The translations under genes were made by a program, and so were the position numbers. A DNA stretch of 64,000 nt from Panorpa germanica (taxonomy: Eukaryota; Arthropoda; Insecta; Mecoptera; Panorpidae): NCBI GenBank assembly GCA_963678705.1, contig OY783206.1:18983807-19047806 (forward strand), written 5' to 3'. Below are positions 12,359 to 54,386 of the stretch, piece by piece (within the stretch, counting starts at the first letter, position 1; the number at the start of each line of letters is the position of its first letter). The notes below the pieces were generated by a model. It was not told where the DNA came from, ran no database searches, and worked only from the letters and a program-made list of their open reading frames with translations.

Positions 12359-12375
12359 GTAACCATAACCCTGTT

Positions 12376-26965: not shown

Positions 26966-28552
26966 AATTTCAAAAAGACTTTTTTGTATGTAGAATAAGT
27001 GTAATAATAAGCTAAAGTATCGTTTATCGTTATAAGCTAAGATAATAAGTTAAAGTATCGTTTTTCAATATTTTTATTAAAAATTTATTTTGGGGGCACG
27101 GAGGCGGTTTTTGCCGAGAGTAAAAATTGTGCTAGAAAATTGAAATTTTTTATGTACGCTGGGTAACTAATTTACGAATCGAAAAAAAATCCCAAATTTT
27201 GAAAAATAACGTCAAATAACGAATAAATTACAAGGCTTACAATACAATCCCAGTAAACAATTTGGTGAAGTGCCCTATTTGGTGAAGTTCGAGTCACTCG
27301 TACAATTCTATTCTAACGCTTTACAAGTTCCTCTACCTATCACAGATTTTGTGTTAGTTATTCTTTCTAGTATTCTTTCTTTTTCCAACAACATTCATTA
27401 AGTATTTTTGTTTCTTTCCCACATGAATATATTTTTTTTAAGTTCAAACTGAGAGAGAAACGAGATGCGTTAGACAAGTAAAATATATAATTCACCGTTA
27501 CACTTGTATACTTGTATAATATTTCGTTCAGTACAGATATTTAAAGTATATGCTATCCTTTTTCAACAAATATTTCTTTAATGGTAATAGACAGACGCTA
27601 TTTCCCTCAATATCCGAATAGAATGTATATAACCGAAGATAGTACCTAGCGATGGTAAGACAGAGGTTTTAAACCTAACGCAGACCTGCCGATCGTGGAT
27701 TTTTGAATCACCAAAACAATGTAAAAAACTAATATAACGAGTATTGTTGAAGATGAAAAATATTTATTAAAAAAATCACGATCCGTACTAAAGACTACAT
27801 CTATTTATTTCTTCATTTAAATATTTATATTTTGCAGAATCTAAAAAGTAAAATTCCATTAGGTTTTATACCCCTGCCATCCTTGCTAGTGTAAAGTTTA
27901 TGACTTATACGATGCTAAGACAGAGGTTTTAAACCTAACGCAGACCTGCCGATCGTGGATTTTTGAATCACCAAAACAATGTAAAAAACTAATATAACGA
28001 GTATTGTTGAAGATGAATAATATTCATTAATAAAATCACGATCCGTACTAAAGATTACATCTATTTATTTCTTCAGTTAAATATTTATATTTTGCAGACT
28101 TTAAAAAGTAAAATTCCATTAAGTTTTATATCCCTGCTAGTATCAAGTTTATAACTCCGGTCATAAATCATAAACCGACTCCGTTTTTAATTCAGCAGTG
28201 AACCGTCGTTGCAATGTCTGTAGCTCATAAAAAGGGCCTTTCCTATGAACGACTGAATAGAAAACGAACACGTTCCAGACAAAATATTCATGATATGTAA
28301 TAGAAATTAAGTACAATTTACTCCAAAATGTTTACTGGGATATTAACAATTACAATAGTTACTTTTGTCTAACTTTGATTTGATTTGAAAACTTTTCATA
28401 CAACACACTCAAACGTAATAAACTATTTACAGCTATCTCGAGCAAAACATTAACCATTTTCATTTTTCTAATTAATTAATTTTTGCCTGGGGTAAATACA
28501 ATCGATTAATAATTATTCTACAGACTTGATTTTTGATTGAAATAAATGTCAA
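26966..28552 (+). repeat. Long dispersed repeat L, copy 2, left part
   Basis: It matches copy 1, with the part equivalent to about 1,755-2,620 deleted, and includes an M element at the same site as in copy 1. It is interrupted at 28,552/28,553 by the 25-kb Helitron insertion and resumes at 53,798. Confidence 0.75.
27249..28339 (+). mobile_element. M-family TIR element in L copy 2
   Basis: It has the same termini (CCCAGTAAACAATTTGG and CCAAAATGTTTACTGGG) and the same AT flanks as in copy 1, so this insertion preceded the split of copies 1 and 2. It carries the internal duplication from 27,656 and 27,915. Confidence 0.7.
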
Positions 28553-28649
28553 TCTTACTATTATAATGTTCGTAATGTTCCAATTTAACATGGAAAACTC
28601 ATAAGAACTCATAGATATTTATATAGAGCGTTATTTATATATATCATCA

Positions 28650-29452
28650 TCCTATATTATAATGTTCCAACTGTATATTTATATGTTTATATGTTTATAT
28701 GTTTATATGTTTATATGTTTATATGTTTATATGTTTATATGTTTGTTGCTGAAATTCGTATGGTAGAATGGAAACGGCTCCGTCAATGTTCTTGAAAGTT
28801 TGCTATTTCGTAGAGAAAAAAATTCTAAGACTTTTGGCGTCCCCGGATTTTTCCCTGAATTTCCTGGAAACCCGTAATTTTGGAAAAACTGGAAAATTCG
28901 AAAAAATACTTTTGCAAATATCTGACGAACTAGAAAAGATAGAAAACTGAAATTTGGTGTGTGTATTGAGATCATAATTGTGCACATTTTCGAATAGTTG
29001 GAAATTTGAAATTTGAGTTCAGTAGCGGCGCGAATTTTTGAGGGCAATGTTAGAATAGAGTTAGGACGTTCAAATTTAATATGTAGGCTCGCTGTAGACA
29101 GTAATTAATGAAAAAAAATAAACAGCCCCAAATTTCCAGTGGCGGCGGGAGTTGAGACAGTAAAAGACAAAAATATTGAAAATGTAGTATTATAACTTAG
29201 GGTATGTATTAAGACACTAATTGCGCATGTTTGCCAATAATTGGATTACCAAAATTTTAATTCAGTAGCGGCGTGATTTTTTGGGGGCAATGTCGCAACA
29301 GAGCTAGAGCGTTGATATTTGGAACGTGGGCCCTATATAGAGTGTCATTAAAGACACACTATAGAAAATTGCAACTTTCCAGAGGCGGCGGGCGCTGGGG
29401 GCCAAAGACCAGAAATATGAAATATATAGATAGGGCTATAGTTTAAAAAATA
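28650..29452 (+). mobile_element. Helitron-family unit, type B
   Basis: It starts A|TCCTATATTATAATG and has a TTATATG microsatellite (28,676-28,745). Type-B units share the first 250 bp with the other units, then carry two related copies of a motif with CAGTAGCGGCG...GGGGGCAATGT about 240 bp apart. Other type-B copies lie at 33,652, 35,935 (minus), 38,362 (minus), 48,227, 49,853 and 51,477. No CTAG terminator is seen in this unit. Confidence 0.6.
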
Positions 29453-31222
29453 TCCTATAATATAATGTTCCAACTGTTTGAATCTATTCTTATCATCTTA
29501 TATTATAATGTCCGAGGTGTATGTTTGTTTTCTTATATTCTTATATGTTTATATGTTTATATTCTTATATGTTTACGCGATTCGTATGGTAGCTCGAAAA
29601 CGGCTCCGTCAATGTTTCTGAAAACTTCCTATTTCGTAGAGAAAAAAATTCTAAGACTTTTGGCGTCCCCGAATTTTTCCCTGAATTTCCTGGAAACCCG
29701 TAATTTTGGAAAAACTGGAAATAAAGTGAGCCCTTTTTTGCTGTATTACTTTCAAGTCGTAAAAGATAGAAAGTTGAAATTTTGCATGTGTATTAAGCTA
29801 TTTAATGCTGACATTTCTCAAAAATTAGAATTTCAAAAATAGAAAAAGGGGGGGTTGAAGAAATTCAGGGGCCCGGTAGGGAACTTTGGAGAAAGTTCAT
29901 ATTCTGGATTGTAGAATAATTAAGTATATTATTAATAAAAAAAAATTCAAAATTTCAAAATTTTATTTGGGGGCACGGGGGCAGTGTTTTCCGAGAGTAA
30001 AAATTGTGCTAGAAAGTTGAAATTTTGTATATAGGCTAACTTTGGTAACTTATTTACGAATCGAAAAAAAAAATCCCAAATTTTGAAAAAAAGTTGGTCA
30101 AATAAGGAATAAATTGAAAATATTTTTTATTTTGATAAAAAAATAATATTTTTTTAGTCAATTTATATGTGTGTATATGTGCGCGAGTTTATTTATTATT
30201 TCAATTTAAAAATAGAACAGTTAAATATGAAATTTAATTACGAATTATTTTATTGGATTTAAATGATACACGCCAAAAAGTCTTCGCTTTGCGACGGGGG
30301 TAAACGTTGCTGGAATTTAAATTTTTACATGAAGTTCAAGCCACACATAAAAGACAGACGTCGCTTGCGACGGGGGTAAAAGCTAGTATTCTTATATTCT
30401 TATATGTTTACGCGATTCGTATGGTAGCTCGAAAACGGCTCCATGGAAGTTTTTAAAAATTTCCTATTTCGTAGAGAAAAAAATTCTAAGACTTTTGGCG
30501 TCCTCGGATTTTTCCCTGAATTTCCTGGAAACCCGTAATTTTGGAAAAACTGGAAAAAAAGTGAACCCTTTTTTGCTGTATTATTTTTAATTCGTAAAAG
30601 ATAGAAAGTTGAAATTTTGCATGTGTATTAAGGTATTCAATGCTGACATTTTTCAAAAATTAGAAATTCAAAAAGTGAAAAAGGGGGGGTTGAAGAAATT
30701 CGGGGGCCCGGTAGGGAACTTTGGAGAAAGTTCATATTCTGGATTCTAGAATAATTAAGTATATTATTAATAAAAAAAAATTCAAAATTCCAAAATTTTA
30801 TTTGGGGGCACGGGGGCAGTATTTGCCGAGAGTAAAAATTGTGCCAGAAAGTTGAAATTTTGTATATAGGCTAATCTTGGTAACTTATTTACGAATCGAA
30901 AAAAAAAATCCCAAATTTTGAAAAAAAGTTGGTCAAATAACGCATAAATTGAAAATATTTTTTATTTTGTTAAAAAAAATAATTTTTTTTAGTCAATTTA
31001 TATGTCATGTATATGTGCGCGAGTTTATTTATTATTTCAATTTAAACATAGAACAGTTAAATATGAAATGTAATTACGAATTATTTTATTGGTTTCAAAT
31101 CATACACGTCAAAAAGACTTCGCTTTGCGACGGGGGTAAACGTTACTGGAATTTAAATTTTTACATGAAGTTCAAGCCACACACAAAAGACAGACGTCGC
31201 TTGCGACGGGGGTAAAAGCTAG
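29453..31222 (+). mobile_element. Helitron unit interrupted by another Helitron
   Basis: Its 5' part is 29,453-29,495 (A|TCCTATAATATAATG) and its remainder 30,387-31,222, ending in the hairpin and CTAG (31,219-31,222). Without the nested unit it is about 879 bp. Confidence 0.65.
29496..30386 (+). mobile_element. Complete 891-bp Helitron unit nested in a sister unit
   Basis: It starts TCTTATATTATAATGTCC after A, and ends with hairpin CGTCGCTTGCGACG (30,359-30,372), GGGGTAAAAG and CTAG (30,383-30,386) before T. A second hairpin-like terminator lies upstream at about 30,285-30,303 (TTCGCTTTGCGACGGGGG). This is the clearest single complete copy. Confidence 0.75.
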
Positions 31223-33651
31223 TCTTATATTATAATGTCCGAGGTGTATGTTTGTTTTCTTATATTCTTATATTCTTATATGTTTATATGTTTATATTCT
31301 TATATGTTTACGCGATTCGTATGGTAGCTCGAAAACGGCTCCATGGAAGTTTTTAAAAATTTCCTATTTCGTAGAGAAAAAAATTCTAAGACTTTTGGCG
31401 TCCCCGGATTTTTCCCTGAATTTCCTGGAAACCCGTAATTTTGGAAAAACTGGAAAAAAAGTGATCCCTTTTTTGCTGCATTACTTTTAAGTCGTAAAAG
31501 ATAGAAAGTTGAAATTTTGCATGTGTATTAAGGTACTTAATGCTGACATTTTTCAAAAATTAGAAATTCAAAAAGTGAAAAAGGGGGGGTTGAAGAAATT
31601 CGGGGGCCCGGTAGGGAACTTTGGAGAAAGTTCATATTCTGGATTCTAGAATAATTAAGTATATTATTAATAAAAAAAAATTCAAAATTTCAAAATTTTA
31701 TTGAGGGGCACGGGGGCAGTATTTGCCGACAGTAAAAATTGTGCTAGAAAGTTGAAATTTTGTATATAGGCTAACCTTGGTAACTTATTTACGAATCGAA
31801 AAAAATAATCCCAAATTTTGAAAAAAAGTTGGTCAAATAACACATAAATTGAAAATATTTTTTATTTTCATTAAAAAAATATATTTTTTTAGTCAATTTA
31901 TATGTGTGAATGTATATGTGCGAGTTTATTTATTATTTCAATTTAAAAATAGAACAGTAAAATATGAAATTTAATTACGAATTATTTTATTGGATTCAAA
32001 TGATACACGCCAAAAAGACGTTGCATTGCGACGGGGGTAAACTCAAGTATATTATAATGTCCCAAGTGTATATTTATATTCTTATATGTTTATGTGTTTA
32101 TATGTTTGGTTCGAATTTTGTATGGCATCTCGAAAACGGCTCCAGGGAAGTTTTTAAAAATTTTCTATTTCGTAGAGAAAAAAATTCTAAGACTTTTGGG
32201 GTCCCCGGATTTTTCCCTGAATTTTCTGGAAACCCGTAATTTTGGAAAAACTGGAAAAAAAGTGATCCCTTTTTTGCTGTATTACTTTTAATTTGTAAAA
32301 GATAGAAAGTTGAAATTTTGCATGTGTATTAAGGTATTCAATGCTGACAATTCTCAAAAATTAGAAATTCAAAAAGTGAAAAAGGGGGGGTTAAAGAAAT
32401 TCGGGGGCACGGTAGGGAACTTTGGAGAAAGTTAATATTCTATATTCTAGAATAATTAAGTATATTATTAATAAAAAAAGAATTCAAAATTTCAAAATTT
32501 TATTGCGGGGCACGAGGGCACTCTTTGCCGAGAGTAAAAATTGTGCTAGAAAGTTGAAATTTTGTATATAGGCTAACCTTGGTAACTTATTTACGAATCG
32601 AAAAAAAATTCTAAAATTTTGAAAAAAAGTTGTTTAAATAACGCATAAATTCAAAATATTTTTTATTTTGATATAAAAAATGTATTTTCTTAGTCAGTTT
32701 GTATAAAAAATTAATTGTTATTAAATGTAAAATCTTTATTATTTAATTTACATTATTTAATGTAAAAAAATTTATTATTTCAATTTAAAAATTTAATTAA
32801 ATTTTGACATGAAATTCAAGCCACTCACAAAAAACAGACGTCGCTTGCGACGGGGGTAAAAGCTAGTATATTATAATGTCCCAGGTGTATATTTGTTTTC
32901 TTATATTCTTATATGTTTGGTTCAAATTTTGTATGGCATCTCGAAAACGGCTCCATGGAAGTTTTTAAAAATTTCCTATTTCGTAGAGAAAAAAATTCTA
33001 AGACTTTTGGCGTCCCCGGATTTTTCCCTGAATTTCCTGGAAACCCGTAATTTTGGAAAAACTGGAAAAAAAGTGATTCCTTCTTTGCTGTATTACTTTT
33101 AAGTCGTATAAGATGGAAAGTTTAAATTTTGCATGTGTATTAAAGTATTCAATGCTGACATTTCTCAAAATATAGAAATTCAAAAATTGAAAAAGGGGGG
33201 GTTAAAGAAATTCGGGGGCCCGGTATGGAACTTTGGAGAAAATTCATTTTCTGGATTCTAGAATAATTAAGTATATTATTAAAAAAAAAAATTCAAAATT
33301 TCAAAATTTTATTGGGGGGCACGGGGGCAGTATTTGCCGAAAGTAAAAATTGTGCTAGAAAGTTGAAATTTTGTATATAGGCTAACCTTGGCAACTTATT
33401 TACGAATCGAAAAGAAAATCCCAAATTTTGAAAAAAAGTTGTTCAAATATCGCATAAATTCAAAATATTTTTTATTTTGATATAAAAAATGTATTTTCTT
33501 AGTCAGTTTGTATAAAAAATTAATTGTTATTAAATGTTAAATCAATATAGGACGAGTTTATTTATTATTTCAATTTAAAAATTAAATTTTGACTTGAAAT
33601 TCAAGCCACTCACAAAAAACAAACGTCGCTTGCGACGGGGGTAAAAGCTAG
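31223..33651 (+). repeat. Three head-to-tail Helitron units
   Basis: The units are 31,223-32,047, 32,048-32,866 and 32,867-33,651. The end of each abuts the next: CTAG|TCTTATATTATAATG at 31,222/31,223, CAAG|TATATTATAATG at 32,047/32,048, CTAG|TATATTATAATG at 32,866/32,867 and again at 33,651/33,652. The first unit ends at the upstream-type terminator (GTAAACTCAAG). Confidence 0.7.
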
Positions 33652-36600
33652 TATATTATAATGTCCCAGGTGTTTGAATCTATTCTTATATTCTTATATG
33701 TTTATATTCTTATATTCTTATATGTTTGGTACTGAATTTTGTATGGCAGCGCGAAAACGGCTCCGGCGATCTTTTTAAAAATTTCCTATTTCGTAAAGAA
33801 AAAAATTCTAAGACTTTTGGCTTCCCCGGATTTTTCCCTGAATTTCCTGGAAACCCGTAATTATGGAAAAACTGGAAAATTCGAAAAAATACTTTTGCAA
33901 ATATCTGACGAACTAGAAAAGATAGAAAACTGAAATTTGGTATGTGTATTGAGATTATAATTGTGCACATTTTCCAATAGTTGGAAATTTGAAATTTGAG
34001 TTCAGTAGCGGCGCGAATTTTTGGGGGCAATGTTAGAATAGAGTTACGACGTTCAAATTTAATATGTACTCTCGCTGTAGACAGTAATTAATGAAAAAAA
34101 ATAAACAGCCCTAAATTTCCAGTGGCGGCGGGAGTTGAGACAGTAAAAGCCAAAAATATTGAAAATGTAGTATTATAACTTAGGGTATGTATTAAGACAC
34201 TAATTGCGCATGTTTGCCAATAATTGGATTACCAAAATTTTAATTCAGTAGCGGCGTGATTTTTTGGGGGCAATGTCGCAACAGAGCTAGAACGTTGATA
34301 TTTGGAACGTGGGCCCTATATAGAGTGTCATTAAAGACACACTATATAAAATTGCAACTTTCCAGAGGCGGCGGGCGCTGGGGGCCAAAGACCAGAAATA
34401 TGAAATATATAGAGATAGGGCTATAGTTTAAAAAATATCCTATATTATAATGTTCCAACTGTTTGAATCTATTCTTATCTACTATTATAATGTTCCAACT
34501 GTATGTTTATAATCTTATGTTCTTATATGTTTGGTACTGAATTTTGTATCGCAGCGCGAAAACGGCTCGCACGATTTTTTTGAAAATTTCCTATTTCGTA
34601 GAGGAAAAAATTCTAAGACTTTTGGCGTTCTCGGATTTTCCCCTGAATTTCCAGGAAACCCGTAATTTTGGAAAAACTGGAAAAAAGTTGGTCTCTTTTT
34701 TGCTGTATAACTTCTTATTTGTGAAAGATATAAAGTTGAAATTTTGCATGTGTATTAAGGTATTCAATGCTGACATTTCTCAAAAATTAGAAATTCAAAA
34801 ATTAAAAAAGGGGGGGGGGTTGTAGAACTGCGGGGGCCCGGTAGGGAACTTTGGAGAAAGTTTTTATTCTAAATTCTAGAATAATTAAGTATATTATTAA
34901 TAAAAAAAAATTCAAAATTTCAAAATGTTATTTGGGGGCACGGGGGCAGTATTTGCCAAAAAAAAAATTGTGCTAGAAAGTTGAAATTTTGTATATAGGC
35001 TAACCTAGGTAACTTATTTACGAATCGAAAAAAAAAATCTAAAATTTACCCCCGTCGCAAGCGACGTTTGCCTTTTGTGTGTGGCTTGAACTTCATGTAA
35101 AAATTTAAATTCCAGTAACGTTTACCCCCGTCGCAAAGGGACGTCTTTTTGGCGTGTATGATTTAAAACCAATAAAATAATTCGTAATTATATTTCATAT
35201 TTAACTCTATTTTTAAATTGAAATAATAAACTCGCTCAATAATAAATTGACAAAAAAAATATTTTTTTTTTATAAAAATAAAAAATATTTTCAATTTATG
35301 CGTTATTTGACCAACTTTTTTTCAAAATTTTAGATTTTTTTTTTCGATTCGTAAATAAGTTACCTAGGTTAGCCTATATACAAAATTTCAACTTTCTAGC
35401 ACAATTTTTTTTTTGGCAAATACTGCCCCCGTGCCCCCAAATAACATTTTGAAATTTTGAATTTTTTTTTATTAATAATATACTTAATTATTCTAGAATT
35501 TAGAATAAAAACTTTCTCCAAAGTTCCCTACCGGGCCCCCGCAGTTCTACAACCCCCCCCCCTTTTTCAATTTTTGAATTTCTAATTTTTGAGAAATGTC
35601 AGCATTGAATACCTTAATACACATGCAAAATTTCAACTTTATATCTTTCACAAATAAGAAGTTATACAGCAAAAAAGAGACCAACTTTTTTCCAGTTTTT
35701 CCAAAATTACGGGTTTCCTGGAAATTCAGGGGAAAATCCGAGAACGCCAAAAGTCTTAGAATTTTTTCCTCTACGAAATAGGAAATTTTCAAAAAAATCG
35801 TGCGAGCCGTTTTCGCGCTGCGATACAAAATTCAGTACCAAACATATAAGAACATAAGATTATAAACATACAGTTGGAACATTATAATAGTAGATAAGAA
35901 TAGATTCAAACAGTTGGAACATTATAATATAGGATATTTTTTAAACTATAGCCCTATCTCTATATATTTCATATTTCTGGTCTTTGGCCCCCAGCGCCCG
36001 CCGCCTCTGGAAAGTTGCAATTTTATATAGTGTGTCTTTAATGACACTCTATATAGGGCCCACGTTCCAAATATCAACGTTCTAGCTCTGTTGCGACATT
36101 GCCCCCAAAAAATCACGCCGCTACTGAATTAAAATTTTGGTAATCCAATTATTGGCAAACATGCGCAATTAGTGTCTTAATACATACCCTAAGTTATAAT
36201 ACTACATTTTCAATATTTTTGGCTTTTACTGTCTCAACTCCCGCCGCCACTGGAAATTTAGGGCTGTTTATTTTTTTTCATTAATTACTGTCTACAGCGA
36301 GCCTACATATTAAATTTGAACGTCGTGACTCTATTCTAACATTGCCCCCAAAAATTCGCGCCGCTACTGAACTCAAATTTCAAATTTCCAACTATTGGAA
36401 AATGTGCACAATTATAATCTCAATACACATACCAAATTTCAGTTTTCTATCTTTTCTAGTTCGTCAGATATTTGCAAAAGTATTTTTTCGAATTTTCCAG
36501 TTTTTCCATAAATACGGGTTTCCAGGAAATTCAGGGAAAAATCCGGGGACGCCAAAAGTCTTAGAATTTTTTTCTTTACGAAATAGGAAATTTTTAAAAA

Positions 36601-36667
36601 GATCGCCGGAGCCGTTTTCGCGCTGCCATACAAAATTCAGTACCAAACATATAAGAATATAAGAATA
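33652..36667. repeat. Large palindrome of Helitron units
   Basis: The left arm, about 33,720-35,047, is the reverse complement of the right arm, about 35,328-36,655, with few differences. A roughly 280-bp spacer (35,048-35,327) contains the 3' hairpin region of the right-hand unit. Each arm carries a type-B unit and an A-type unit. The arm sequence recurs once more, direct, at about 48,240-49,565. Confidence 0.75.
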
Positions 36668-39600
36668 CTAGCTTTTACCCCCGTCGCAAGCGACGTTTGT
36701 TTTTTGTGTGTGGCTTGAATTTCATGTCAAAATTTAATTCCATTTTTAAACTGAAATAATAAATAAATTCGTCCTAAATTAATTTTACATATTATAACAA
36801 TTAATTTTTCATTCAAACTGACTAAGGAAATATATTTTTTATATCAAAATAAAAAATATTTTCAATTCATGCGTTATTTGACCAACTATTTTTCAAAATT
36901 TGGGATTTTTTTTCGATTAGTAAATAAGTTACCACGGTTAGCCTATATACAAAATTTCAACTTTCTAGCACAATTTTTACTTTCGGCAAATACTGCCCCC
37001 GTGCCCCCCAATAAAATTTTGAAATTTTGAATTTTTTTTTATTGATAATATACTTAGTTATTCTAGAATCCAGAATATGAACTTTCTCCAAAGTTCCCTA
37101 ACGGGCCCCCGAATTTCTTCAACCCCCCCTTTTTTAATTTTTGAATTTCTAATTTTTGAGAAATGTCAGCATTGAATACCTTAATACACATGCAAAATTT
37201 CAACTTTCTATCGTTTACGACTTAAAAGTAATACAGCAAAAAAGGGATCACTTTTTTTCCAGTTTTTCCAAAATTACGCGTTTCCAGGAAATTCAGGGAA
37301 AAATCCGGGGACGCCAAAAGTCTTAGAATTTTTTTCTCTACGAAATAGGAAATTTTTAAAAAGATCGCCGGAGCCGTTTTCGCGCTGCCATACAAAATTC
37401 AGTACCAAACATATAAGAATATAAACATACTAGCTTTTACCCCCGTCGCAAGCGACGTCTGTCTTTTGTGTGTGGCTTGAACTTCATGTAAAAATTTTAA
37501 TTCTATCAGAGTTTACTCCCGTCGTAAAGCGTCTTTTTGGCGTGTATCATTTGAATCCAATAAAATAATTCGTAATTACATTTCATATTTAATTCTATTT
37601 TTAAATTGAAATAATAAATAAACTCGCACATATACATTGACACATATAAATTGACTAAAAAAAATATATTTTTTTTATTAAAATAAAAAATATTTTCAAT
37701 TTATGCGTTATTTGACCAACTTTTTTTCAAAATTTGGAATTTTTTTTTTCGATTCGTAAATAAGTTACCAAGATTAGCCTATATACAAAATTTCAATTTT
37801 CTAGCACAATTTTTACTCTCGGCAAATACTGCCCCCGTGCCACCCAATAAAATTTAAAAATTTTGAATTTTTTTTTATTAATACTATACTTAATTATTCT
37901 AAAATCCAGAATATGAACTTTCTCTAAAGTTCCGTACCGGGCCCCCGAATTTCTTCAAACCCCCCTTTGTCAATTTTTGAATTTTTAATTTTTGAGAAAT
38001 GTCAGCTTTGAATACCTTAATACACATGCAAAATTTCAACTTTCTATCTTTTACGAATTAAAAGTGATACAGCAAAAAAGGGCTCAATTTTTTTCCAGTT
38101 TTTCCAAAATTACGGGTTTCCAGGAAATTCAGGGAAAAATCTGGGGACGCCAAAAGTCTTAGAATTTTTTTCTCTACGAAATAGGAAATTTTCAAAAACA
38201 TTGATGGAGCCGTTTTCGCGCTGCCATACAAAATTCAGTACCAAACATATAAACATATAAGAATATAAGAATAGATTCAAACAGTTGGAACATTATAATA
38301 TAGGATAAGAATATAAGAATATAGGAATAGATTCAAACAGTTGGAACATTATAATATAGGATATTTTTTAAACTATAGCCCTATCTCTATATATTTCATA
38401 TTTCTGGTCTTTGGCCCCCAGCGCCCGCCGCCTCTGGAAAGTTGCAATTTTCTATAGTGTGTCTTTAAAGACACTCTATAAAGGGCCCACGTTCCAAATA
38501 TCAACGTTCTAGCTCTGTTGCGACATTGCACCCAAAAAAGCACGCCGCTACTGAATTAAAATTTTGGTAATCCAATTATTGGCAAACAGGCACAATCAGT
38601 GTCTTAATACATACCCTAAGTTATAATACTACATTTTCAATATTTTTGGCTTTTACTGTCTCAACTCCCGCCGCCACTGGAAATTTGGGGCTGTTTATTT
38701 TTTTCATTAATTACTGTCTACGGCGAGCCTACATATTAAATTTGAACATCCTAACTCTATTCTAACATTGCCCCCAAAAATTCGCGCCGCTACTGTACTC
38801 AAATTTCAAATTTCCAACTATTGGAAAATGTGCACAATTATAATCTCAATACACACACCAAATTTAAGTTTTCTATTTTTTCTGGTTCGTCAGATATTTG
38901 CAAAAGTATTTTTTCGAATTTTCCAGTTTTTCCAAAATTACGGGTTTCCAGGAAATTCAGGGAAAAATCCGGGGACGCCAAAAGTCTTAGAATTTTTTTC
39001 TCTACGAAATAGGAAATTTACAAAAAGATCGCCGGAGCCGTTTTCGCGCTGCCATACAAAATTCAGTACCAAACATATAAACATATAAACATACTAGCTT
39101 TTACCCCCGTCGCAAGCGACGTCTGTCTTTTGTGTGTGGCTTGAACTTCATGTAAAAATTTTAATTCCACCAGAGTTTACCCCCGTCGTAAAGCGTCTTT
39201 TTGGCGTGTATATTTGAATTCAATAAAATAATTCGTAATTACAATTCATATTTAACTCTAATATAGTTTACCCCCGTCGCAAAGCGACGTCTTTTTGGCG
39301 TGTATCATTTGAATCCAATAAAATAATTCGTAATTACATTTCATATTTAACTGTTCTATTTTTAAATTGAAATAATAAATAAACTCGCACATATACATTG
39401 ACACATATAAATTGACTAAAAAAATATATTTTTTTTATCAAAATAAAAAATATTTTCAATTTATGCGTTATTTGACCAACTTTTTTTCAAAATTTGGGAT
39501 TTTTTTTTCGAATCGTAAATAAGTTACCAAGATTAGCCTATATACAAAATTTCAACTTTCTAGCACAATTTTTACTCTCGGCAAATACTGCCCCCGTGCC

Positions 39601-42600: not shown

Positions 42601-43940
42601 TACAAAATTTCAACTTTCTAGCACAATTTTTACTCTCGGCAAATACTGCCCCCGTGCCCCCCAATAAAATTTTGAAATTTTGAATTTTTTTTTATTAATA
42701 ATATACTTAATTATTCTAGAATCCAGAATATGAACTTTCTCCAAAGTTCCTTACCGGGCCCCCGAATTTCTTCAACCCCCCCTTTTTCAATTTTTGAATT
42801 TCTAATTTTTGAGAAATGTCAGCATTGAATACCCTAATGCACATGAAAATTTTCAGCTTTCTATCTCTTACCAACTCAAAGTTATACAGCAAAAAGTGAC
42901 CATTTTTTTTACCAGTTTTTCCAAAATTACGGGTTTCCAGGAAATTCAGGGAAAAATCCGGGGACGCCAAAAGTCTTAGAATTTTTTTCTCTACGAAATA
43001 GGCAATTTTCAAAAACATTGACGGAGCCGTTCTAGGAGCTACCATACGAATCGCGTAAACATATAAGAATATAAGAATATAAGAATATAAGTATATAAGA
43101 ATATAAGAAAACAAACATACACCTCGGACATTATAAATAAGATGATAAACATATAAGAATATAAGAATAGATTCAAACACCTGGGACATTATAATAAACT
43201 AGCTTCTACCCCCGTCGCAAGCGACGTTTGTTTTTTGTGAGTGGCTTGAATTTCAAGTCAAAATTTAATTTTTAAATTGAAATAATAAATAAACTCGTCC
43301 TATATTGATTTAACATTTAATAACAATTAATTTTTTATACAAACTGACTAAGAAAATACATTTTTTATATCAAAATAAAAAATATTTTGAATTTATGCGA
43401 TATTTGAACAACTTTTTTTCAAAATTTGGGATTTTCTTTTCGATTCGTAAATAAGTTGCCAAGGTTAGCCTATATACAAAATTTCAACTTTCTAGCACAA
43501 TTTTTACTCTCGGCAAATACTGCCCCCGTGCCCCCCAATAAAATTTTGAAATTTTGAATTTTTTTTTTTTTAATAATATACTTAATTATTCTAGAATCCA
43601 GAAAATGAATTTTCTCCAAAGTTCCATACCGGGCCCCCGAATTTCTTTAACCCCCCCTTTTTCAATTTTTGAATTTCTATATTTTGAGAAATGTCAGCAT
43701 TGAATACTTTAATACACATGCAAAATTTAAACTTTCATCTTATACGACTTAAAAGTAATACAGCAAAGAAGGGATCACTTTTTTCCAGTTTTTCCAAAAT
43801 TACGGGTTTCCAGGAAATTCAGGGAAAAATCCGGGGACGCCAAAAGTCTTAGAATTTTTTTCTCTACGAAATAGGAAATTTTTAAAAACTTCCATGGAGC
43901 CGTTTTCGAGCTACCATACGAATCGCGTAAACATATAAGA
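36668..43940 (-). repeat. Minus-strand block of Helitron units
   Basis: Inverse terminators CTAGCTTTTACCCC occur at 36,668, 37,430, 39,094, 40,933, 42,246 and 43,199, and inverse 5' ends (ACATTATAATATA or TAGGA) near 38,304, 38,361, 40,055, 40,890, 42,245 and 43,190. The order is that of about seven units on the minus strand, some fused or truncated (for example 41,235-41,430, where internal sequence is missing). Confidence 0.65.
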
Positions 43941-45926
43941 ATATTATAATGTCCCAGGTGTTTGAATCTATTCTTATATTCTTATATGTTTGGTACTGAA
44001 TTTTGTATGGCAGCGCGAAAACGGCTCCGGCGATCTTTTTAAAAATTTCCTATTTCGTAGAGAAAAAAATTCTAAGACTTTTGGCGTCCCCGGATTTTTC
44101 CCTGAATTTCCTGGAAACCCGTAATTTTGGAAAAACTGGAAAAAAAGTGATCCCTTTTTTGCTGTATTACTTTTAACTCATAAACGATAGAAAGTTGAAA
44201 TTTTGCATGTGTATTAAGGCATTTAATGCTGACATTTCTCAAAAATTAGAAATTTAAAAATTGACAAAGGGGGGGTTGAAGAAATTCGGGGGCCCGGTAG
44301 GGAACTTTGTAGAAAGTTCATATTCTATATTTAAGAATAATTAAGTATAGTATTAATAAAAAAAAATTCAAAATTTCCAAATTTTATTGGGGGGCACATG
44401 GGCAGTATTTGCCGAGAGTAAAAATTGTGCTAGAAAGTTGAAATTTTGTATATAGGCTAATCTTGGTAACTTATTTACGAATCAAAAAAAAAAATTCCAA
44501 ATTTTGAAAAAAAGTTGGTCAAATAACGCATAAATTGAAAATATTTTTTATTTTGATAAAAAAAATATATTTTTTTTAGTCAATTTATATGTGTTAATGT
44601 ATATGTGCGAGTTTATTTATTATTTCAATTTAAAAATAGAACAGTTAAATATGAAATTTAATTACGAATTATTTTATTGGATTCAAATCATACACGCCAA
44701 AAAGACGTCGCATTGCGACGGGGGTAAACTATAGTAGAGTTAAGTATGAATTGTGATTACGAATTATTTTATTGGATTCAAATATACACGCCAAAAAGAC
44801 GCTTTACGACGGGGGTAAACTCTAGTGGAATTAAAATTTTTACATGAAGTTCAAGCCACACACAAAAGACAGACGTCGCTTGCGACGGGGGTAAAAGCTA
44901 GTATAAGAATATAAACATATAAGAATATAAGAAAACAAACACACCTCGGACATTATAATATACTAGCTTTTACCCTCGTCGCAAGCGACGTCTGTCTTTT
45001 GTGTGTGGTTTGAACTTCATGTAAAAATTTTAATTCCACCAGAGTTTACCCCCGTCGTAAAGCGTCTTTTTGGCGTGTATATTTGAATTCAATAAAATAA
45101 TTCGTAATTACAATTCATATTTAACTCTAATATAGTTTACCCCCGTCGCAAAGCGACGTCTTTTTGGCGTGTATCATTTGAATCCAATAAAATAATTCGT
45201 AATTACATTTCATATTTAACTGTTCTATTTTTAAATTGAAATAATAAATAAACTCGCACATATACATTGACACATATAAATTGACTAAAAAAATATATTT
45301 TTTTTATCAAAATAAAAAATATTTTCAATTTATGCGTTATTTGACCAACTTTTTTTCAAAATTTGGGATTTTTTTTTCGAATCGTAAATAAGTTACCAAG
45401 ATTAGCCTATATACAAAATTTCAACTTTCTAGCACAATTTTTACTCTCGGCAAATACTGCCCCCGTGCCCCCCAATACAATTTTGAAATTTTAAATTTTT
45501 TTTTTTTAATAATATACTCAATTATTCTAGAATCCAGAAAATGAATTTTCTCCAAAGTTCCCTACCGGGCCCCCGAATTTGTTTAACCCCCCCTTTTTTA
45601 ATTTTTGAATTTCTAATTTTTGAGAAATGTCAGCATTGAATAATTTAATACACATGCAAAATTTCAACTTTCTATCTTATACGAATTAAAAGTAATACAG
45701 CAAAGAAGGGATCACTTTTTTCCAGTTTTTCCAAAATTACGGGTTTCCAGGAAATTCAGGGAAAAATCCGGGGACGCCAAAAGTCTTAGAATTTTTTTCT
45801 CTACGAAATAGGAAATTTTTAAAAACTTCCCTGGAGCCGTTTTCGAGATGCCATACAAAATTCGAACCAAACATATAAACACATAAACATATAAGAATAT
45901 AAATATACACTTGGGACATTATAATA
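43941..45926. repeat. Second palindrome of Helitron units
   Basis: The plus unit 43,941-44,901 faces its near inverse 44,963-45,926 across a 61-bp spacer made of a minus-type 5' end and microsatellite. The plus unit shows three successive terminators (ending near 44,735, 44,825 and 44,901). The right arm and following sequence also directly repeat 39,094-40,450. Confidence 0.65.
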
Positions 45927-46716
45927 CACTTGAGTTTACCCCCGTCGCAATGCGACGTCTTTTTGGCGTGTATCATTTGAATTCAATAAAATAATTCGTA
46001 ATTAAATTTCATATTTAACTGTTCTATTTTAAAATTGAAATAATAAATAAACTCGCACATATACATTGACACATATAAATTGACTAAAAAAATATTATTT
46101 TTTTATCAAAATAAAAAATATTTTCAATTTATGCGTTATTTGACCAACTTTTTTTCAAAATTTGGGATTTTTTTTTTCGATTCGTAAATAAGTTACCAAG
46201 GTTAGCCTATATACAAAATTTCAACTTTCTAGCACAATTTTTACTCTCGGAAAATACTGCCCCCGTGCCCCCAAATAAAATTTTGAAATTTTGAATTTTT
46301 TTTTATTAATAATATACTTAATTACTCTACAATCCAGAATATGAACTTTCTCCAAAGTTCCCTACCGGGCCCCCGAATTTCTTCAACCCCCCCTTTTTCT
46401 ATTTTTAAAATTCTAATTTTTGAGAAATGTCAGCATTAAATAGCTTAATACACATGCAAAATTTCAACTTTCTATCTTTTACGACTTGAAAGTAATACAG
46501 CAAAAAAGGGATCACTTTTTTTCCAGTTTTTCCAAAATTACGGGTTTCCAGAAAATTCAGGGAAAAATCCGGGGACGCCAAAAGTCTTAGAATTTTTTTC
46601 TCTACGAAATAGGAAGTTTTTAAAAACTTCCCTGGAGCCGTTTTCGAGATGCCATACAAAATTCGAACCAAACATATAAGAATATAAATATACACCTGGG
46701 ACATTATAATATATGA

Positions 46717-48226
46717 CTAGCTTTTACCCCCGTCGCAAGCGACGTCTGTTTTTTGTGTGTGGCTTGAATTTCATGTCAAAATTTAAACTCATTTTTAAAT
46801 TGAAATAATAAATAAACTCGTCCTATATTAATTTTACATATAATAACAATTAATTTTTCATACAAACTGACCAAAAAAATATATTTTTTATATTAAAATA
46901 AAAAATATTTTCAATTTATGCGTTATTTGACCAACTTTTTTTCAAAATTTGGGATTTTTTTTGATTAGTAAATAAGTTACCAAGGTTAGCCTATATACAA
47001 AATTTCAACTTTCTAGCACAATTTTTACATTCGAAAAATATTGTCCCCCGTGCCCCCAAATAAAATTTTGAATTTTCTATTATTGATAATATACTTATTT
47101 ATTCTAGAATTTAGAATATGAACCTTCTTTGACGTTTCCTACCGGGCCCCCGAATTTCTTCAACCCCCCCTTTTTTAATTTTTGAATTTCTAATTTTTGA
47201 GAAATGTCAGCATTGAATACCTTAATACACATGCAAAATTTCATCTTTCTATAATTTACGAATTAAAAGTAATACAGCGAAAAAGGGCTCACTTTTTTTC
47301 CATTTTTTCCCAAATTACGGGTTTCCAGGAAATTCAGGGAAAAATCCGGGGATGCTAGAAGTCTTAGATTTTTTTCTCTTTAAAGTCCCTTTTAAAGTCT
47401 AAGGTTTACCCCCGTCGCAGAGCGATGTCTTTGGCGTGTATCATTTAAATCCAATAAAATAATTCGTAATTAAATTTCTTATTTAACTGTTCTATTTTTA
47501 AATTGAAATAATAAATAAACTCGCGCACATATACACACATATAAATTGATTAAAAAAATATTTTTTTTTTATCAAAATAAAAAATATTTTCAATTTATGC
47601 GTTAAATGACCAACTTTTTTTCAAAATTTGGGATTTTTTTTTTCGATTCGTAAATAAGTTACCAAGGTTAGCCTATATACAAAATTTTAACTTTCTAGCA
47701 CAATTTTTACTCTCGAAAAATACTGCCCCCGTGCCCCCCAATAAAATTTTGAAATTTTGAATTTTTTTTTATTATTAATATACTTAATTATTCTAGAATC
47801 CAGAATATGAACTTTCTCCAAAGTTCCGTAACGGGCCCCCAAATTTCTGTAACCCCCCCTTTTTCAATTTTTGAATTTCTAATTTTTGAGAAATGTCAGC
47901 ATTGAATACCTTAATACACACACCAAATTTCAGTTTTCTATCTTTTCTAGTTCGTCAGATATTTGCAAAAGTATTTTTTCGAATTTTCCAGTTTTTCCAG
48001 AATAATTTGTTCCAGGGAAATTCAGGGAAAAATTCAGGGACGTAGAAAGTCTTAGAAATTCGTCCTTTACATAATATCAAAATTTAAAAAACTTTGTAGG
48101 CGCCGTTTAGAAGATACCATACAGATTTTGTTACCGGAAATATATATATATATATATATAAATATCTATGAGTTCTTATGAGTTTTCCATGTTAAATTGG
48201 AACATTACGAACATTATAATAGTAGA
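46717..48226 (-). mobile_element. Minus-strand Helitron with the outer-type 5' end
   Basis: On the minus strand it begins A|TCTACTATTATAATG (48,226) followed by GTTCGTAATGTTCCAATTT, the same 5' region as the outer insertion at 28,553, and ends at CTAG (46,720-46,717) before T. Length is 1,510 bp. A TA microsatellite lies at 48,140-48,160. Confidence 0.6.
48140..48160. repeat. TA microsatellite
   Basis: About ten TA units near the 5' end of the minus-strand Helitron at 46,717-48,226. Confidence 0.8.
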
Positions 48227-49852
48227 TGATGATATTCTTATATGTTTGGTACTGAATTTTGTATGGCAGCGCGAAAACGGCTCCGGCGATCTTTTTAAAA
48301 ATTTCCTATTTCGTAGAGAGAAAAATTCTAAGACTTTTGGCGTCCCCGGATTTTTCCCTGAATTTCCTGGAAACCCGTAATTATGGAAAAACTGGAAAAT
48401 TCGAAAAAATACTTTTGCAAATATCTGACGAACTAGAAAAGATAGAAAACTGAAATTTGGTATGTGTATTGAGATTATAATTGTGCACATTTTCCAATAG
48501 TTGGAAATTTGAAATTTGAGTTCAGTAGCGGCGCGAATTTTTGGGGGCAATGTTAGAATAGAGTTACGACGTTCAAATTTAATATGTAGGCTCGCTGTAG
48601 ACAGTAATTAATGAAAAAAAATAAACAGCCCTAAATTTCCAGTGGCGGCGGGAGTTGAGACAGTAAAAGCCAAAAATATTGAAAATGTAGTATTATAACT
48701 TAGGGTATGTATTAAGACACTAATTGCGCATGTTTGCCAATAATTGGATTACCAAAATTTTAATTCAGTAGCGGCGTGATTTTGTGGGGGCAATGTCGCA
48801 ACAGAGCTAGAACGTTGATATTTGGAACGTGGGCCCTATATAGAGTGTCATTAAAGACACACTATATAAAATTGCAACTTTCCAGAGGCGGCGGGCGCTG
48901 GGGGCCAAAGACCAGAAATATGAAATATATAGAGATAGGGCTATAGTTTAAAAAATATCCTATATTATAATGTTCCAACTGTTTGAATCTATTCTTATCT
49001 ACTATTATAATGTTCCAACTGTATGTTTATAATCTTATGTTCTTATATGTTTGGTACTGAATTTTGTATCGCAGCGCGAAAACGGCTCGCACGATTTTTT
49101 TGAAAATTTCCTATTTCGTAGAGGAAAAAATTCTAAGACTTTTGGCGTTCTCGGATTTTCCCCTGAATTTCCAGGAAACCCGTAATTTTGGAAAAACTGG
49201 AAAAAAGTTGGTCTCTTTTTTGCTGTATAACTTCTTATTTGTGAAAGATATAAAGTTGAAATTTTGCATGTGTATTAAGGTATTCAATGCTGACATTTCT
49301 CAAAAATTAGAAATTCAAAAATTGCAAAAGGGGGGGGGTTGTAGAACTGCGGGGGCCCGGTAGGGAACTTTGGAGAAAGTTTTTATTCTAAATTCTAGAA
49401 TAATTAAGTATATTATTAATAAAAAAAAATTCAAAATTTCAAAATGTTATTTGGGGGCACGGGGGCAGTATTTGCCAAAAAAAAAATTGTGCTAGAAAGT
49501 TGAAATTTTGTATATAGGCTAACCTAGGTAACTTATTTACGAATCGAAAAAAAAAATCTAAAATTTTGAAAAAAAGTTGGTCAAATAACGCATAAATTGA
49601 AAATATTTTTTATTTTGATAAAAAAAAAATATTTTTTTTGTCAATTTATTATTGAGCGAGTTTATTATTTCAATTTAAAAATAGAGGTAAATATGAAATA
49701 TAATTACGAATTATTTTATTGGTTTTAAATCATACACGCCAAAAAGACGTCCCTTTGCGACGGGGGTAAACGTTACTGGAATTTAAATTTTTACATGAAG
49801 TTCAAGCCACACACAAAAGGCAAACGTCGCTTGCGACGGGGGTAAAAGCTAG
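48227..49852 (+). repeat. Plus-strand Helitron block, third copy of the palindrome arm
   Basis: It matches 33,720-35,047 directly, and its whole length, including the two terminators (to CTAG 49,849-49,852), is the inverse of 35,041-36,66x. It shows only scattered differences by eye. Confidence 0.65.
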
Positions 49853-52800
49853 TATATTATAATGTCCCAGGTGTTTGTTTATATTCTTATATGTTTATAT
49901 GTTTATATTCTTATATGTTTGGTACTGAATTTTGTATGGCAGCGCGAAAACGGCTCCGGCGATCTTTTTAAAAATTTCCTATTTCGTAGAGAAAAAAATT
50001 CTAAGACTTTTGGCGTCCCCGGATTTTTCCCTGAATTTCCTGGAAACCCGTAATTTTGGAAAAACTGGAAAATTCGAAAAAATACTTTTGCAAATATCTG
50101 ACGAACTAGAAAAGATAGAAAACTGAAATTTGGTATGTGTATTGAGATTATAATTGTGCACATTTTCCAATAGTTGGAAATTTGAAATTTGAGTTCAGTA
50201 GCGGCGCGAATTTTTGGGGGCAATGTTAGAATAGAGTTACGACGTTCAAATTTAATATGTAGGCTTGCTGTAGACAGTAATTAATGAAAAAAAATAAACA
50301 GCCCCAAATTTCCAGTGGCGGCGGGAGTTGAGACAGTAAAAGCCAAAAATATTGAAAATGTAGTATTATAACTTAGGGTATGTATTAAGACACTAATTGC
50401 GCATGTTTGCCAATAATTGGATTACCAAAATTTTAATTCAGTAGCGGCGTGATTTTTTGGGGGCAATGTCGCAACAGAGCTAGAACGTTGATATTTGGAA
50501 CGTGGGCCCTATATAAAGTGTCATTAAAGACACACTATAGAAAATTGCAACTTTCCAGAGGCGGCGGGCGCTGGGGGCCAAAGACCAGAAATATGAAATA
50601 TATAAAGATGATAGGCTATAGTTTAGAATATATGTTCTTAGATATAAATAAAATAGATCCCTGTGTTAAAATTTGACAAACTTGTTCAGTAGCGCAGGTA
50701 TGTGGGGGGTACTAATGCTAAAATATTAATACAAAGCTAAAATTTAGTATGCAGATATAGATTGACATATTATTAACGAAAATATAAAAAAAACTACATT
50801 TTCTTAAGTGTAACACTAGAGTGGGGTGTGATAAACCGAGTATAAGGACAAAATAGAGGTACAACGATAATATTTTCAAATTACATTCAATAGTAGAATG
50901 GAATTGATTTTTGGTACGTTTGTTGTGCTGTGAAATCGAACAGTAGTGAGAGGTATAGGGGGGAAATAGTTAACAGCCCCAAATATCAAATTAAAAAAAT
51001 AGAAACTACGCATGTGGATATTTGCGAAAAATAAATTTAACCTTAGTAGCGGCGTTAAATTGGGGAAGTGGGGGCGGGAAAGGCTTTGCCAAAGAGCTGA
51101 ATTTTGAAATTTCGATCATTTATAAAAGTAGAGGTAGGTAAAGGTTATAAAGGTAGAGAGAATTGTTACGAGCAAAATAGATTGTTATGCCTAAAATTTG
51201 ACAAATATTAAATATTTTTTATTTTGATAAAGAAATATATTTTTTTAGTCAATTTATATGTGTTAATGTATGTGTGCGACTTTATTTATTATTTCAATTT
51301 AAAAATAGAATTAAATATGAAATGTAATTACGAATTATTTTATTGGATTTAAATCATACACGCCAAAAAGACGTCGCTTTGCGACGGGGGTAAACTCTGC
51401 TGGAATCTAAATTTTTGCATGAAGTTCAAGCCACACGCAAAAGACAGACGTCGCTTGCGACGGGGGTAAAAGCTAGTATGTTTATATGTTTATATGTTTA
51501 TATGTTTATATGTTTAAATGTTTATATGTTTGGTACTGAATTTTGTATGGCAGCGCAAAAACGGCTCCGGCGATCTTTTTGAATATTTCCTATTTCGTAG
51601 AGAAAAAAATTCTAAGACTTTGGCGTCCCCGGATTTTTCCCTGAATTTCCTGGAAACCCGTAATTTTGGAAAAACTGGAAAATTCGAAAAAATACTTTTG
51701 CAAATATCTGACGAACTAGAAAAGATAGAAAACTTAAATTTGGTATGTGTATTGAGATTATAATTGTGCACATTTTCCAATAGTTGGAAATTTGAAATTT
51801 GAGTTCAGTAGCGGCGCGAATTTTTGGGGGAAATGTTAGAATAGAGTTAGGATGTTCAAATTTAATATGTAGGCTTGCTGTAGACAGTAATTAATGAAAA
51901 AAAATAAACAGCCCCAAATTTCCAGTGGCGGCGGGAGTTGAGACAGTAAAAGCCAAAAATATTGAAAATGTAGTATTATAACTTAGGGTATGTATTAAGA
52001 CACTGATTGCGCATGTTTGCCAATAATTGGATTACCAAAATTTTAATTCAGTAGCGGCGTGATTTTTTGGGTGCAATGTCGCAACAGAGCTAGAACGTTG
52101 ATATTTGGAACGTGGGCCCTATATAGAGTGTCTTTAAAGACACACTATAGAAAATTGCAACTTTCCAGAGGCGGCGGGCGCTGGGGGCCAAAGACCAGAA
52201 ATATGAAATATATAGAGATAGGGCTATAGTTTAAAAAATATCCTATATTATACCAACTATTATATTGTTCCAACTGTTTGAATCTATTCTTATATTCTTA
52301 TATTCTTATCTTATATTATAATGTCCCAGGTGTTTCAATCTATTCTTATATGTTTATATTCTTATATGTTTATATGTTTGGTACTGAATTTTGTATGGCA
52401 GCGCGAAAACGGCTCCATCAATGTTTTTGAAACCCGTAATTTTGGAAAATCTGGAAAAAAGTGATTCCTTTTTTGCTGTATTACTTTTAATTCGTAAAAG
52501 ATAAAAAGTTGAAATTTTGCATGTGTATTAAGGTATTCAATGCTGACATTTCTCAAAAATTAGAAATTGAAAAATTGAAAAAGGGGGGGCTGATGAAATT
52601 CGGGGGCCCGTTAGGAAACTTTGGAGAAAGTTCATATTCTGGATTCTAGAATAATTAAGTATATTATCAATAAAAAAAAATTCAAAATTTCCAAATTTTA
52701 TTTGGGGGCACGTGGGCAGTATTTGCCGAAAGTAAAAATTGTGCTAGAAAGTTGAAATTTTTTATATAGGCTAACTTTGGTACCTAATTTACGAATCGAA

Positions 52801-53797
52801 AAAAAAATTCCCAAATTTTGAAAAAAAGTTGGTCAAATAACGAACAAATTTAAAATATTTTTTATTTTGTTAAAAAAAAAAATTTTTTTTAGTCAGTTTA
52901 TATGTGTAGCGAGTTTATTTATTATTTCAATTTAAAAATAGAATTAAATATGAAATGTAATTACGAATTATTTTATTGGATTCAAATCATACTTGACCAA
53001 AGGACGTCGCATTGCGACGGGGGTAAACTCTAGAGATCTTATATTCTTATATGTTTGGTAGTAAATTTTGTATGGCAGCGCAAAAACGGCTTCGTCAATG
53101 TTTTTGAAAATTGCCTGTTTTGTAGAGAAATTTTTTTTAAGACTTTTGGCGTCGCAGGATTTTTCCCTGAATTTTCTTAAAACCCGTAATTTTGGAAAAA
53201 CTGGAAAAAAAAGTGAACCTTTTTTGCTGTATTACTTTTAATTCGTAAAAGATAGAAAGTTGAAATTTTGCATGTGTATTAAGGTATTTTATGCTGACAT
53301 TTCTCAAAAATTAGAAATTCAAAAATTGAAAAAGGGGGGGTTGAAGAAACTCAGGGGCCTGGTAGAAAACTTTGGAGAAAGTTCATATTCTAGATTCTAG
53401 AATAATTAAGTGTATTATTAATAAAAGAAAAATTCAAAATTTCAAAATTTTATTTAGGGGCACGAGGGGCAGTAATTTCCGAGTGTCAAAATTGTGCTAG
53501 AAAGTTGAAATTTTGTATATAGGCTAACCGTGGTAACTTATTTACTAATCGAAAAAAAATCGTAAATTTTGAAAAAAAGTTGGTCAAATAACGCATGAAT
53601 TGAAAATATTTTTTATTTTGATATAAAAAATATATTTCCTTAGTCAGTTTGAATGAAAAATTAATTGTTATAATATGTAAAATTAATATAGGACGAATTT
53701 ATTTATTATTTCAGTTTAAAAATGGAATTAAATATTTACATGAAATTCAAGCCACACACAAAAAACAGGCGTCGCTTGCGACGGGGGTAAAAGCTAG
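49853..53797 (+). repeat. Plus-strand Helitron units, 3' end of the insertion
   Basis: It starts with the tandem junction CTAG|TATATTATAATG. It includes a type-B unit extended by sequence resembling the gypsy leader (50,690-51,130), a terminator at 51,473-51,476, a further type-B unit, A-type units with terminators at 53,030-53,033 (CTAG of the upstream type), and the final terminator at 53,794-53,797. Confidence 0.65.
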
Positions 53798-54386
53798 TAT
53801 ATGTATATTGACGTTCTAATTTTTAAAATAGCTATATAAAATTTAAATTTCAGCTTTGTCGCATGTTTTAGCTATGCATAAGACGTCACAGAAGAAATAA
53901 GTAATCGATATTATCTTCTACTCACAATCGTTTCCGTTTTTGTTGCATAAAAGGTGTAAAATCTGCTGACGTAACATGCAGTAAAATTTTCTTTAACGTT
54001 GGATCCCTTTAAATAATTAAATTTAATTATTTGTCACTTAAGTGACAAAATGACTTTTTTAATTGTTAATATTTCTTAAAATATAATGAGTTGCTAACAA
54101 ATAATTGGACATTTGAGGTCCTGGTAGCTAACTATCAATATTTATCACAGTTTAATAGAAATTAAGACATAGTTCCCAAACCCCATTTAACAATAAATCA
54201 GAAATTCAAATCTTAAATAGCTACACCTTCGTAAATTTTTCGATATTAACAAAAATAAATTAAAAAATGGACATATTGTAGCATATATATAAATAATTTT
54301 TAACTTGATAGCAAAAATGTTACTTTTTCAGATTATAAATTGAGAATCAATAATTTAAAATCAATTTCAATGACAATTTTTCTTTT
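53798..54386 (+). repeat. Long dispersed repeat L, copy 2, right part
   Basis: It continues the sequence broken at 28,552 and matches 62,070-62,630 and 4,078-4,270. After about 54,386 similarity to copies 1 and 3 ends. Confidence 0.75.

Follow-up and report, generated by a model that had tools for sequence, protein, structure and literature searches.

A 25-kb block at positions 28553–53797 of a 64,000-nucleotide stretch of the Panorpa germanica genome (the window; C3:18983807–19047806 of a 464-Mb assembly in 249 contigs) is very probably a nest of non-autonomous Helitrons, in which one composite element sits at an A|T site of a host repeat, here called L, and 15 later copies are nested. The block has the edges of a single Helitron, and an original prediction, made from the letters of the window, had left two explanations open: a concatemer that moved as one unit, or one Helitron enlarged by nested insertions. 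Nested growth is favored because the block resolves into 16 successive insertions and because, at five of six joints that lie three bases inside the head of a sibling copy (offset-3 joints), the TCA trinucleotide of the interrupted sibling has been kept. The block was most likely smaller than 25 kb on arrival, and what survives of the first explanation is that small composites do move as units.

The block occupies one A|T site of repeat L

The left edge of the block reads ...AAATGTCAA|TCTTACTATT, with TC at 28553–28554 preceded by A28552, and the right edge reads GGGGTAAAAGCTAG|TATATGTAT, with CTAG at 53794–53797 followed by T53798. The Helitron-type TC start and CTAG end that had been predicted thus fall exactly on the block edges. 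The unsplit target is found as AAATGTCAGTATATG at 4069–4083 (L copy 1) and as AAATGTCAATATATG at 62059–62073 (L copy 3), and two matches with at most one mismatch occurred in none of 100 shuffles. For an empty-site test, 201 bases of either flank were joined and aligned to these two copies. The joined flanks match copy 1 over 394 ungapped bases (97.7% identity) and copy 3 over 402 columns (95.8%) with a single 5-base gap, which falls at left-flank bases 92–96, more than 100 bases off the junction. Across the outer junction, 39 of 40 bases match copy 1, compared with 27 at each of four shifted boundaries. Two further claims of the original prediction, insertion between A28552 and T53798 without target duplication and an empty site inside the window, are borne out by these alignments, in which copies 1 and 3 run uninterrupted through the block position. 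The empty sites are paralogous, not allelic.

At the right end, a CGTCG/CGACG stem 14 bases before position 53797 forms a 5-bp hairpin in the DNA fold, at the distance of about 10–15 bases from the 3′ end that is typical of canonical Helitrons; this fold is no stronger than those of shuffled sequences (z = −0.5). The longest open reading frame listed for the block is 157 aa long, and the units are therefore taken as non-autonomous.

Repeat L is present in three same-orientation copies within the 64 kb, at 1715–6888, 27081–54386, and 60815–64000. Copy 2 is the one split by the block. Its left part (27081–28552, + strand) runs up to the position that is unsplit in copies 1 and 3 and carries a 260-bp tandem duplication (27650–28137), and its right part (53798–54386, + strand) is 93.5% identical to 62068–62634. 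The repeat also has an internal inverted repeat, with 2924–3415 matching 5413–4923 at 97%.

The units belong to one Helitron family

A unit of the block is ∼0.8 to 1.8 kb long and consists of TC, a few variable bases, TATTATAATGTYC, an 8-bp microsatellite (TATTCTTA/TATGTTTA), and a body, often followed in the 3′ part by an inner “pre-terminator” hairpin with CTCAAG or a similar motif and then by the last hairpin with GGGGTAAAAGCTAG. The family head can be written as TC...TATATTATAATG and the family tail as GCGACGGGGGTAAAAGCTAG. The block contains 16 right ends, eight on each strand, three of which (at 42246, 43199, and 44963) carry one mismatch. All 16 elements end in CTAG, in agreement with the CTRR consensus, and all have an A on the left and a T on the right without target duplication; TC is present at the 5′ end of 13, the outer one included. 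The three TC-less elements, named G, D6, and E5 below, begin either with TATTATAATG or with a T a few bases upstream of it, and we read them as 5′ trimmed. The genome as a whole contains 2,198 exact matches to the 20-base right end (1,107 + 1,091), whereas the reversed-pattern control gave no match.

The block resolves into 16 nested insertions

The block was peeled by hand, removing the innermost element at each step and checking four marks each time (TC, CTAG, A, and T). Sixteen steps account for the 16 right ends and leave, at the A|T site of L, a composite of 2,412 bp, made up of a 5′ head of the TCTTACTATTATAATGTTCG type (28553–28643, + strand) and a remainder with the terminal hairpin and CTAG (51477–53797, + strand). 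Among the 15 elements nested in it, A, T, and CTAG were found in all and TC in 12. Net lengths are 788 to 1,800 bp, save for E4 (4.6 kb), which has been enlarged by an inverted local duplication. Entry into the older unit occurs at one of three places: three bases in from the 5′ end (TCA|TATATT), immediately in front of the TC, or within the 8-bp microsatellite.

The + strand nest begins directly after the outer head with two TCA remnants (28644–28649), one of E4 (28644–28646) and one of E3 (28647–28649), each cut three bases from the 5′ end of its element. E1 (28650–31222), a composite of 1,679 bp net with all four marks present, lies before the TC of E2 and holds N1 (29493–30386, + strand, 894 bp) in the microsatellite of its inner unit. 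E2 (31223–32866), a 1,644-bp two-unit composite with an inherited joint CTCAAG|TATATT at 32047, sits at TCA|TATATT of E3, and E3 (32867–33651 together with 28647–28649, 788 bp net) sits at TCA|TATATT of E4. E4 (33652–49852 together with 28644–28646) measures 4,639 bp net without the minus-strand element D3 and its contents. It adjoins E5 (49853–51476, + strand, 1,624 bp), which entered the microsatellite of the outer composite and has no TC, having been trimmed or having lost its TCA.

The minus-strand nest is carried by D3 (36668–48232, 818 bp net), which holds the other minus-strand copies and G, and whose healed target is the center of a palindrome inside E4. In one arm, O1 (46717–48226, 1,510 bp) lies before the TC of D1 (44963–46716, 1,754 bp); D1 sits at TCA|TATATT of D2, and D2 (43199–48229, 807 bp net) at TCA|TTTATT of D3. 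D2 also holds G (43942–44901, + strand, 960 bp, no TC) in its microsatellite, the clear case of insertion in the opposite orientation. A target duplication considered at G was dropped, because the microsatellite, once healed, agrees with an unsplit copy at all 40 bases. In the other arm, D4 (42246–43142, 897 bp) sits at TCA|TATATT of D5, D5 (40933–43145, 1,316 bp net) at the head of D6, and D7 (39094–40893, 1,800 bp) in the microsatellite of D6; D6 itself (37430–40932, 1,703 bp net, no TC) entered the microsatellite of D3.

Healed sites were examined with a junction test, in which 40 bases across the site were compared with an unsplit homologue and with shifted boundaries. The test supports the insertions of N1, D4, and D7 (38 of 40 bases each) and of D6 and G (40 of 40), for which shifted boundaries scored at most 33.

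TCA remnants record the order of insertion

Insertion of a copy at TCA|TATATT leaves TCA on its left and the joint CTAG|TATATT on its right. Six of the 15 internal joints of the window are of this offset-3 type, five reading CTAG|TATATT and one CTAG|TTTATT, and at five of the six the missing TCA of the interrupted sibling is present far to the left, on the other side of the inserted copy. Two of the 15 joints are of the CTAG|TC type, with unlike units on either side. Because each offset-3 insertion deposits its TCA on the left and its joint on the right, head-to-tail arrays are extended at their left side, and the order of insertion can be read from the stack of TCA remnants. The first nest at locus L014_16 likewise shows two TCA remnants and two matching tails, and at locus L027 five peeling steps use up all right ends, the last site being read as older body. 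Among the first 100 listed of the head joints found genome-wide, 59 are offset-3 joints (CTAG|TATATT), 28 lie directly before TC, and 13 are of other kinds, as counted by eye.

Composites arise along the way and can be passed on. Two units linked through a broken terminator (CTCAAG) are passed on as a single element, and this joint recurs at 32047, 40060, and 45929 as well as at several other loci. Two sites with different flanks (L019 and L025) share a 2.1-kb composite in which TCA heads are stacked (98.7% identity over 2,117 bp), and small nests can therefore move as new elements.

Right ends gather in the 5′ region of siblings

Within the window, all right ends except the outer end of the block (15 of 16) run into the 5′ region of a sibling (reference positions 1–66), and 14 of these 15 share its orientation. 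We took a census of 100 listed right ends of the 2,198, all from C1:0–9.26 Mb, reading up to 100 bases downstream of each. A T follows the right end in all 100. The downstream sequence is the 5′ region of a sibling in the same orientation for 52, with 20 of these joints at three to five bases into the head, 9 immediately in front of TC, 3 at some other head offset, and 20 within the microsatellite. One end lies in a sibling 5′ region in the opposite orientation, two show weak body matches, also opposite, and 45 lie elsewhere, a class that includes TA-repeat matches (two in the same orientation, one opposite) and one end located 13 bases upstream of a sibling. When only distinct 90-base downstream sequences are counted, 43 of 46 joints with the own family fall in the 5′ region in the same orientation. 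A comparison of both sides of the joints in the window and the long loci found 54 of 62 right ends to be distinct at 95% (49 at 93% and 57 at 97%).

Strict patterns applied genome-wide placed the head core within 12 bases of 632 of the 2,198 right ends, although some 5 to 9 of the first 100 listed joints of this kind look like chance, and the microsatellite directly after 264; reversed-pattern controls gave none. The census ends are also clustered, 54 of the 100 lying less than 3 kb from another, whereas 1,000 random placements gave 6 on average and never more than 19. Arrays are thus a habit of this Helitron family in C1:0–9.26 Mb, and the expectation that an array of non-autonomous sisters would be unusual does not hold there.

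Right ends of other families (GCGAAGCGCTAG and GATGAACGCTAG types) were seen to abut the TC of this family's head in five of five cases, at loci that had been picked because they hold this family (L012 at about 3571 and 5058, L014:421, L019:5506, and L009:3704; three matched by script and two by reading). These joints suggest cross-family use of the same 5′ site.

Alternative origins of the block

Several observations weigh against nesting as read here. The junction test was of no help at 10 of the 16 healed sites: at E1 and O1 the top match is the locus itself, at E2, E3, D1, and D3 the scores are tied or close, and a shifted boundary scores higher at D2 (37 versus 30), D5 (34 versus 29), and, by one, at E4 and E5. 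Three of the 16 elements lack TC, and the offset-3 joint at 49852 lacks its TCA. A naive automatic peeler left right ends unparsed in the window (one on the + strand and two on the − strand) and was also incomplete at L012, L013, L014_16, L018, L020, and L029_30; it misparsed composites, and a manual reading of the nest, with explicit checks, was used instead. Local duplication adds to growth by insertion. In E4, a segment C is present three times in the order + − +, as a shortened copy (C+trunc, 33705–35046, + strand; 99.55% identical to C− and 99.33% to C+), an inverted copy (C−, 35045–36667, − strand) whose CTAG end was lost at the 35045 junction, and a third copy (C+, 48233–49852, + strand) that bears the CTAG end of E4. 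The mutual identity of 99.3 to 99.55% compares with at most 94% at the other loci compared, and parts of C (∼0.73 kb) in other block units are 97.5 to 98.1% identical. The 35045 junction has a few shared bases (short homology), and D3 later entered the palindrome center between C− and C+. Nesting alone does not explain this duplication–inversion–duplication, which we read as a single local rearrangement or else as a misassembly. At C1:4073–4088 kb (L029 and L030), a 5.28-kb unit of several Helitrons is repeated in tandem nearly three times (99.6% identity over 10,344 bp), a satellite-like higher-order repeat that has formed out of a Helitron nest, and L014_16 contains two 1,293-bp units that are 99.8% identical, a local duplication. 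Because of these tandem duplications, some arrays continue to grow in the manner of satellites. As a separate observation, L018:494–4284 is a 5′-trimmed nest starting from TATTATAATG with an apparent 10-base flanking repeat TATTGTCTAA, which is unlike a normal Helitron insertion and may be a duplication.

Three other origins were weighed for the block. A rolling-circle concatemer, in which the terminator was bypassed repeatedly and a 25-kb multimer inserted once, would account for outer edges that resemble one Helitron, is how published tandem arrays have been read (PMC4067079 and PMC5876387), and fits the movement of small composites as units. It would also be expected to join like units as CTAG|TC, whereas the few such joints seen connect unlike units; the offset-3 joints with TCA left behind, the presence of units on both strands that peel as nested, and the fact that 10 of the 16 block right ends have their closest relative, among the sequences compared, at another locus argue against it as well. 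Transposition from the outer TC would moreover have to pass seven intact right ends on the + strand, and we consider this origin highly improbable. Homologous recombination of Helitron circles with resident copies, yielding head-to-tail duplicates, predicts same-orientation joints and could draw on the imprecision of the circles themselves, since precise junctions were present in 49% of the Helraiser circles recovered and thus absent from about half (PMC5876387); local tandem duplication is, furthermore, real at two loci. It does not predict the far-side TCA, the A and T at every peeled element, or the microsatellite joints, and neighboring units are of different subfamilies, most being not closest to their neighbors. 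Recombination is therefore an extremely unlikely source of the block. As for an assembly artefact, chimeric reads can produce structures such as the palindromic C copies and the junction at 35045; the C copies differ by 6 to 8 mismatches over 1.3 to 1.6 kb, however, and hence do not reflect a simple fold-back read, the outer edges coincide exactly with TC and CTAG, and similar arrays occur at many loci, which makes an artefact very unlikely. Under nested growth, one composite Helitron would have entered the A|T site of L, and later copies would have landed in the 5′ region of siblings, mostly in the same orientation, so that the array grew from the left.

Target preference and homing

One possible reason why new copies land at sibling 5′ ends is a preference for target sequence alone, without active homing, the heads and the 8-bp microsatellite simply being good A|T sites. 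Insertions outside the family (41 right flanks) favor A|TAT followed by ∼12 AT-rich bases, and a matrix of this preference puts the head site at the 99th percentile among background A|T sites, with those of the microsatellite above the 95th. Yet body sites that score equally high (e.g., position 602 in A and 1386 in B) are hardly used. With A|T sites weighted by the matrix, the first 110 bases in the same orientation are expected to receive 11, 22, 18, and 16% of insertions for four element types, compared with the 43 of 46 distinct joints observed (P at most 4e−25), and the orientation ratio is 43:1 (P = 5e−12), although A|T is its own complement; these P values assume independent joints, copies having been merged only when their 90 downstream bases were identical. 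Strand asymmetry in the outside flanks is not significant (T against A, P = 0.13 in the first 18 right flanks and P = 0.73 in 14 left flanks). One census end counted as elsewhere, L027:1986, was read as lying in older body in the same orientation and would change the ratio to 43 of 47. Target preference by itself thus seems a rather doubtful explanation.

Our tentative proposal, which we hold to be plausible rather than probable, is that this Helitron lineage homes strand-specifically to sibling 5′ ends, a sibling nicked and opened at its TC being the preferred target of the incoming circle. The plus strand of the sibling would be nicked and opened at TC by a shared RepHel transposase, and the opened sibling would offer its first tens of bases, single-stranded and in one orientation, to an incoming plus-strand circle. 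The idea draws on the action of HUH nucleases on single-stranded DNA and on the Helraiser model, which places the nick in the plus strand at the left end, at the start of a fork (PMC5876387). If homing of this kind occurs, it is a transposition-coupled choice of target; arrays, multiheaded composites, and, after local duplication, satellite-like higher-order repeats would follow from it alone, and the TCA stack would be a readable record of insertion. Head-to-tail arrays elsewhere that have been read as rolling-circle concatemers may then share a nested origin. The preference could be tested in the Helraiser system (PMC5876387) or in an active wheat family (PMC13286980).

Other elements in the window

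An older solo relative of the block family lies at 19264–20218 on the − strand. It is 954 bp long, reads A|TCCTATATT ... CTCTAG|T, and is 76 to 81% identical to block copies over a stretch of ∼350 bp. A BEL/Pao retrotransposon occupies 10351–15782, with 485-bp long terminal repeats that are 99.6% identical and a coding region split over several frames. An open reading frame at 8855–9370 on the − strand contains a DDE_Tnp_1_7 transposase domain (Pfam E = 3e−36) and is presumably of the piggyBac type.

Comparison with known Helitron systems

Self-insertion and tandem arrays of Helitrons are already known, and only the measured strand-specific bias toward 5′ ends is likely to be new; no report of such a bias was found in the literature titles and abstracts searched, most subscription papers being outside reach. 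The text of a silkworm paper (PMC3789558) does not contain the words tandem, head-to-tail, nested, or array.

Helibat1 and Helraiser, as described in the accessible part of PMC5876387, resemble the present family in their A|T target, a conserved 5′ dinucleotide, and a 3′ tetranucleotide after a hairpin. They use the plus strand and form circle intermediates. They belong to a different sequence family, and that part of the paper does not mention 5′-end homing. DINE-1/HINE Helentrons (PMC4067079) are likewise non-autonomous rolling-circle elements with a microsatellite; they have a T-rich or TT target and subterminal inverted repeats, whereas the family described here has an A|T target and TC/CTAG ends.

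A parallel in behavior is FoHeli of Fusarium oxysporum, for which PMC5148889 describes self-insertion, several 5′ termini with one 3′ terminus, and composites proposed to extend from the outer 5′ end to the first 3′ end, all as seen here. FoHeli differs in that single or few cases are reported and in that it belongs to a non-canonical group. The block family, by comparison, is canonical with respect to A|T and offers hundreds of joints, a measured bias of orientation and position, a TCA tally, and a 16-element nest.

Tandem Helitron arrays like the present ones have been described in Myotis and Bombyx, where they were explained by bypass of the terminator or by rolling-circle concatemers (as cited in both PMC4067079 and PMC5876387); such arrays, likened to concatemers, have been cited as support for rolling-circle transposition (PMC5876387). 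Here, unlike in that reading, most listed head joints are of the offset-3 type and the remnant is kept at five of six such joints in the window, which fits nested insertion. The joints of the present family are legible at the level of single bases, and the majority of those read indicate the same process. This suggests that Helitron arrays can grow by self-targeting, and nested growth would offer a path by which a dispersed element gives rise to composites and to repeats of a satellite-like kind.

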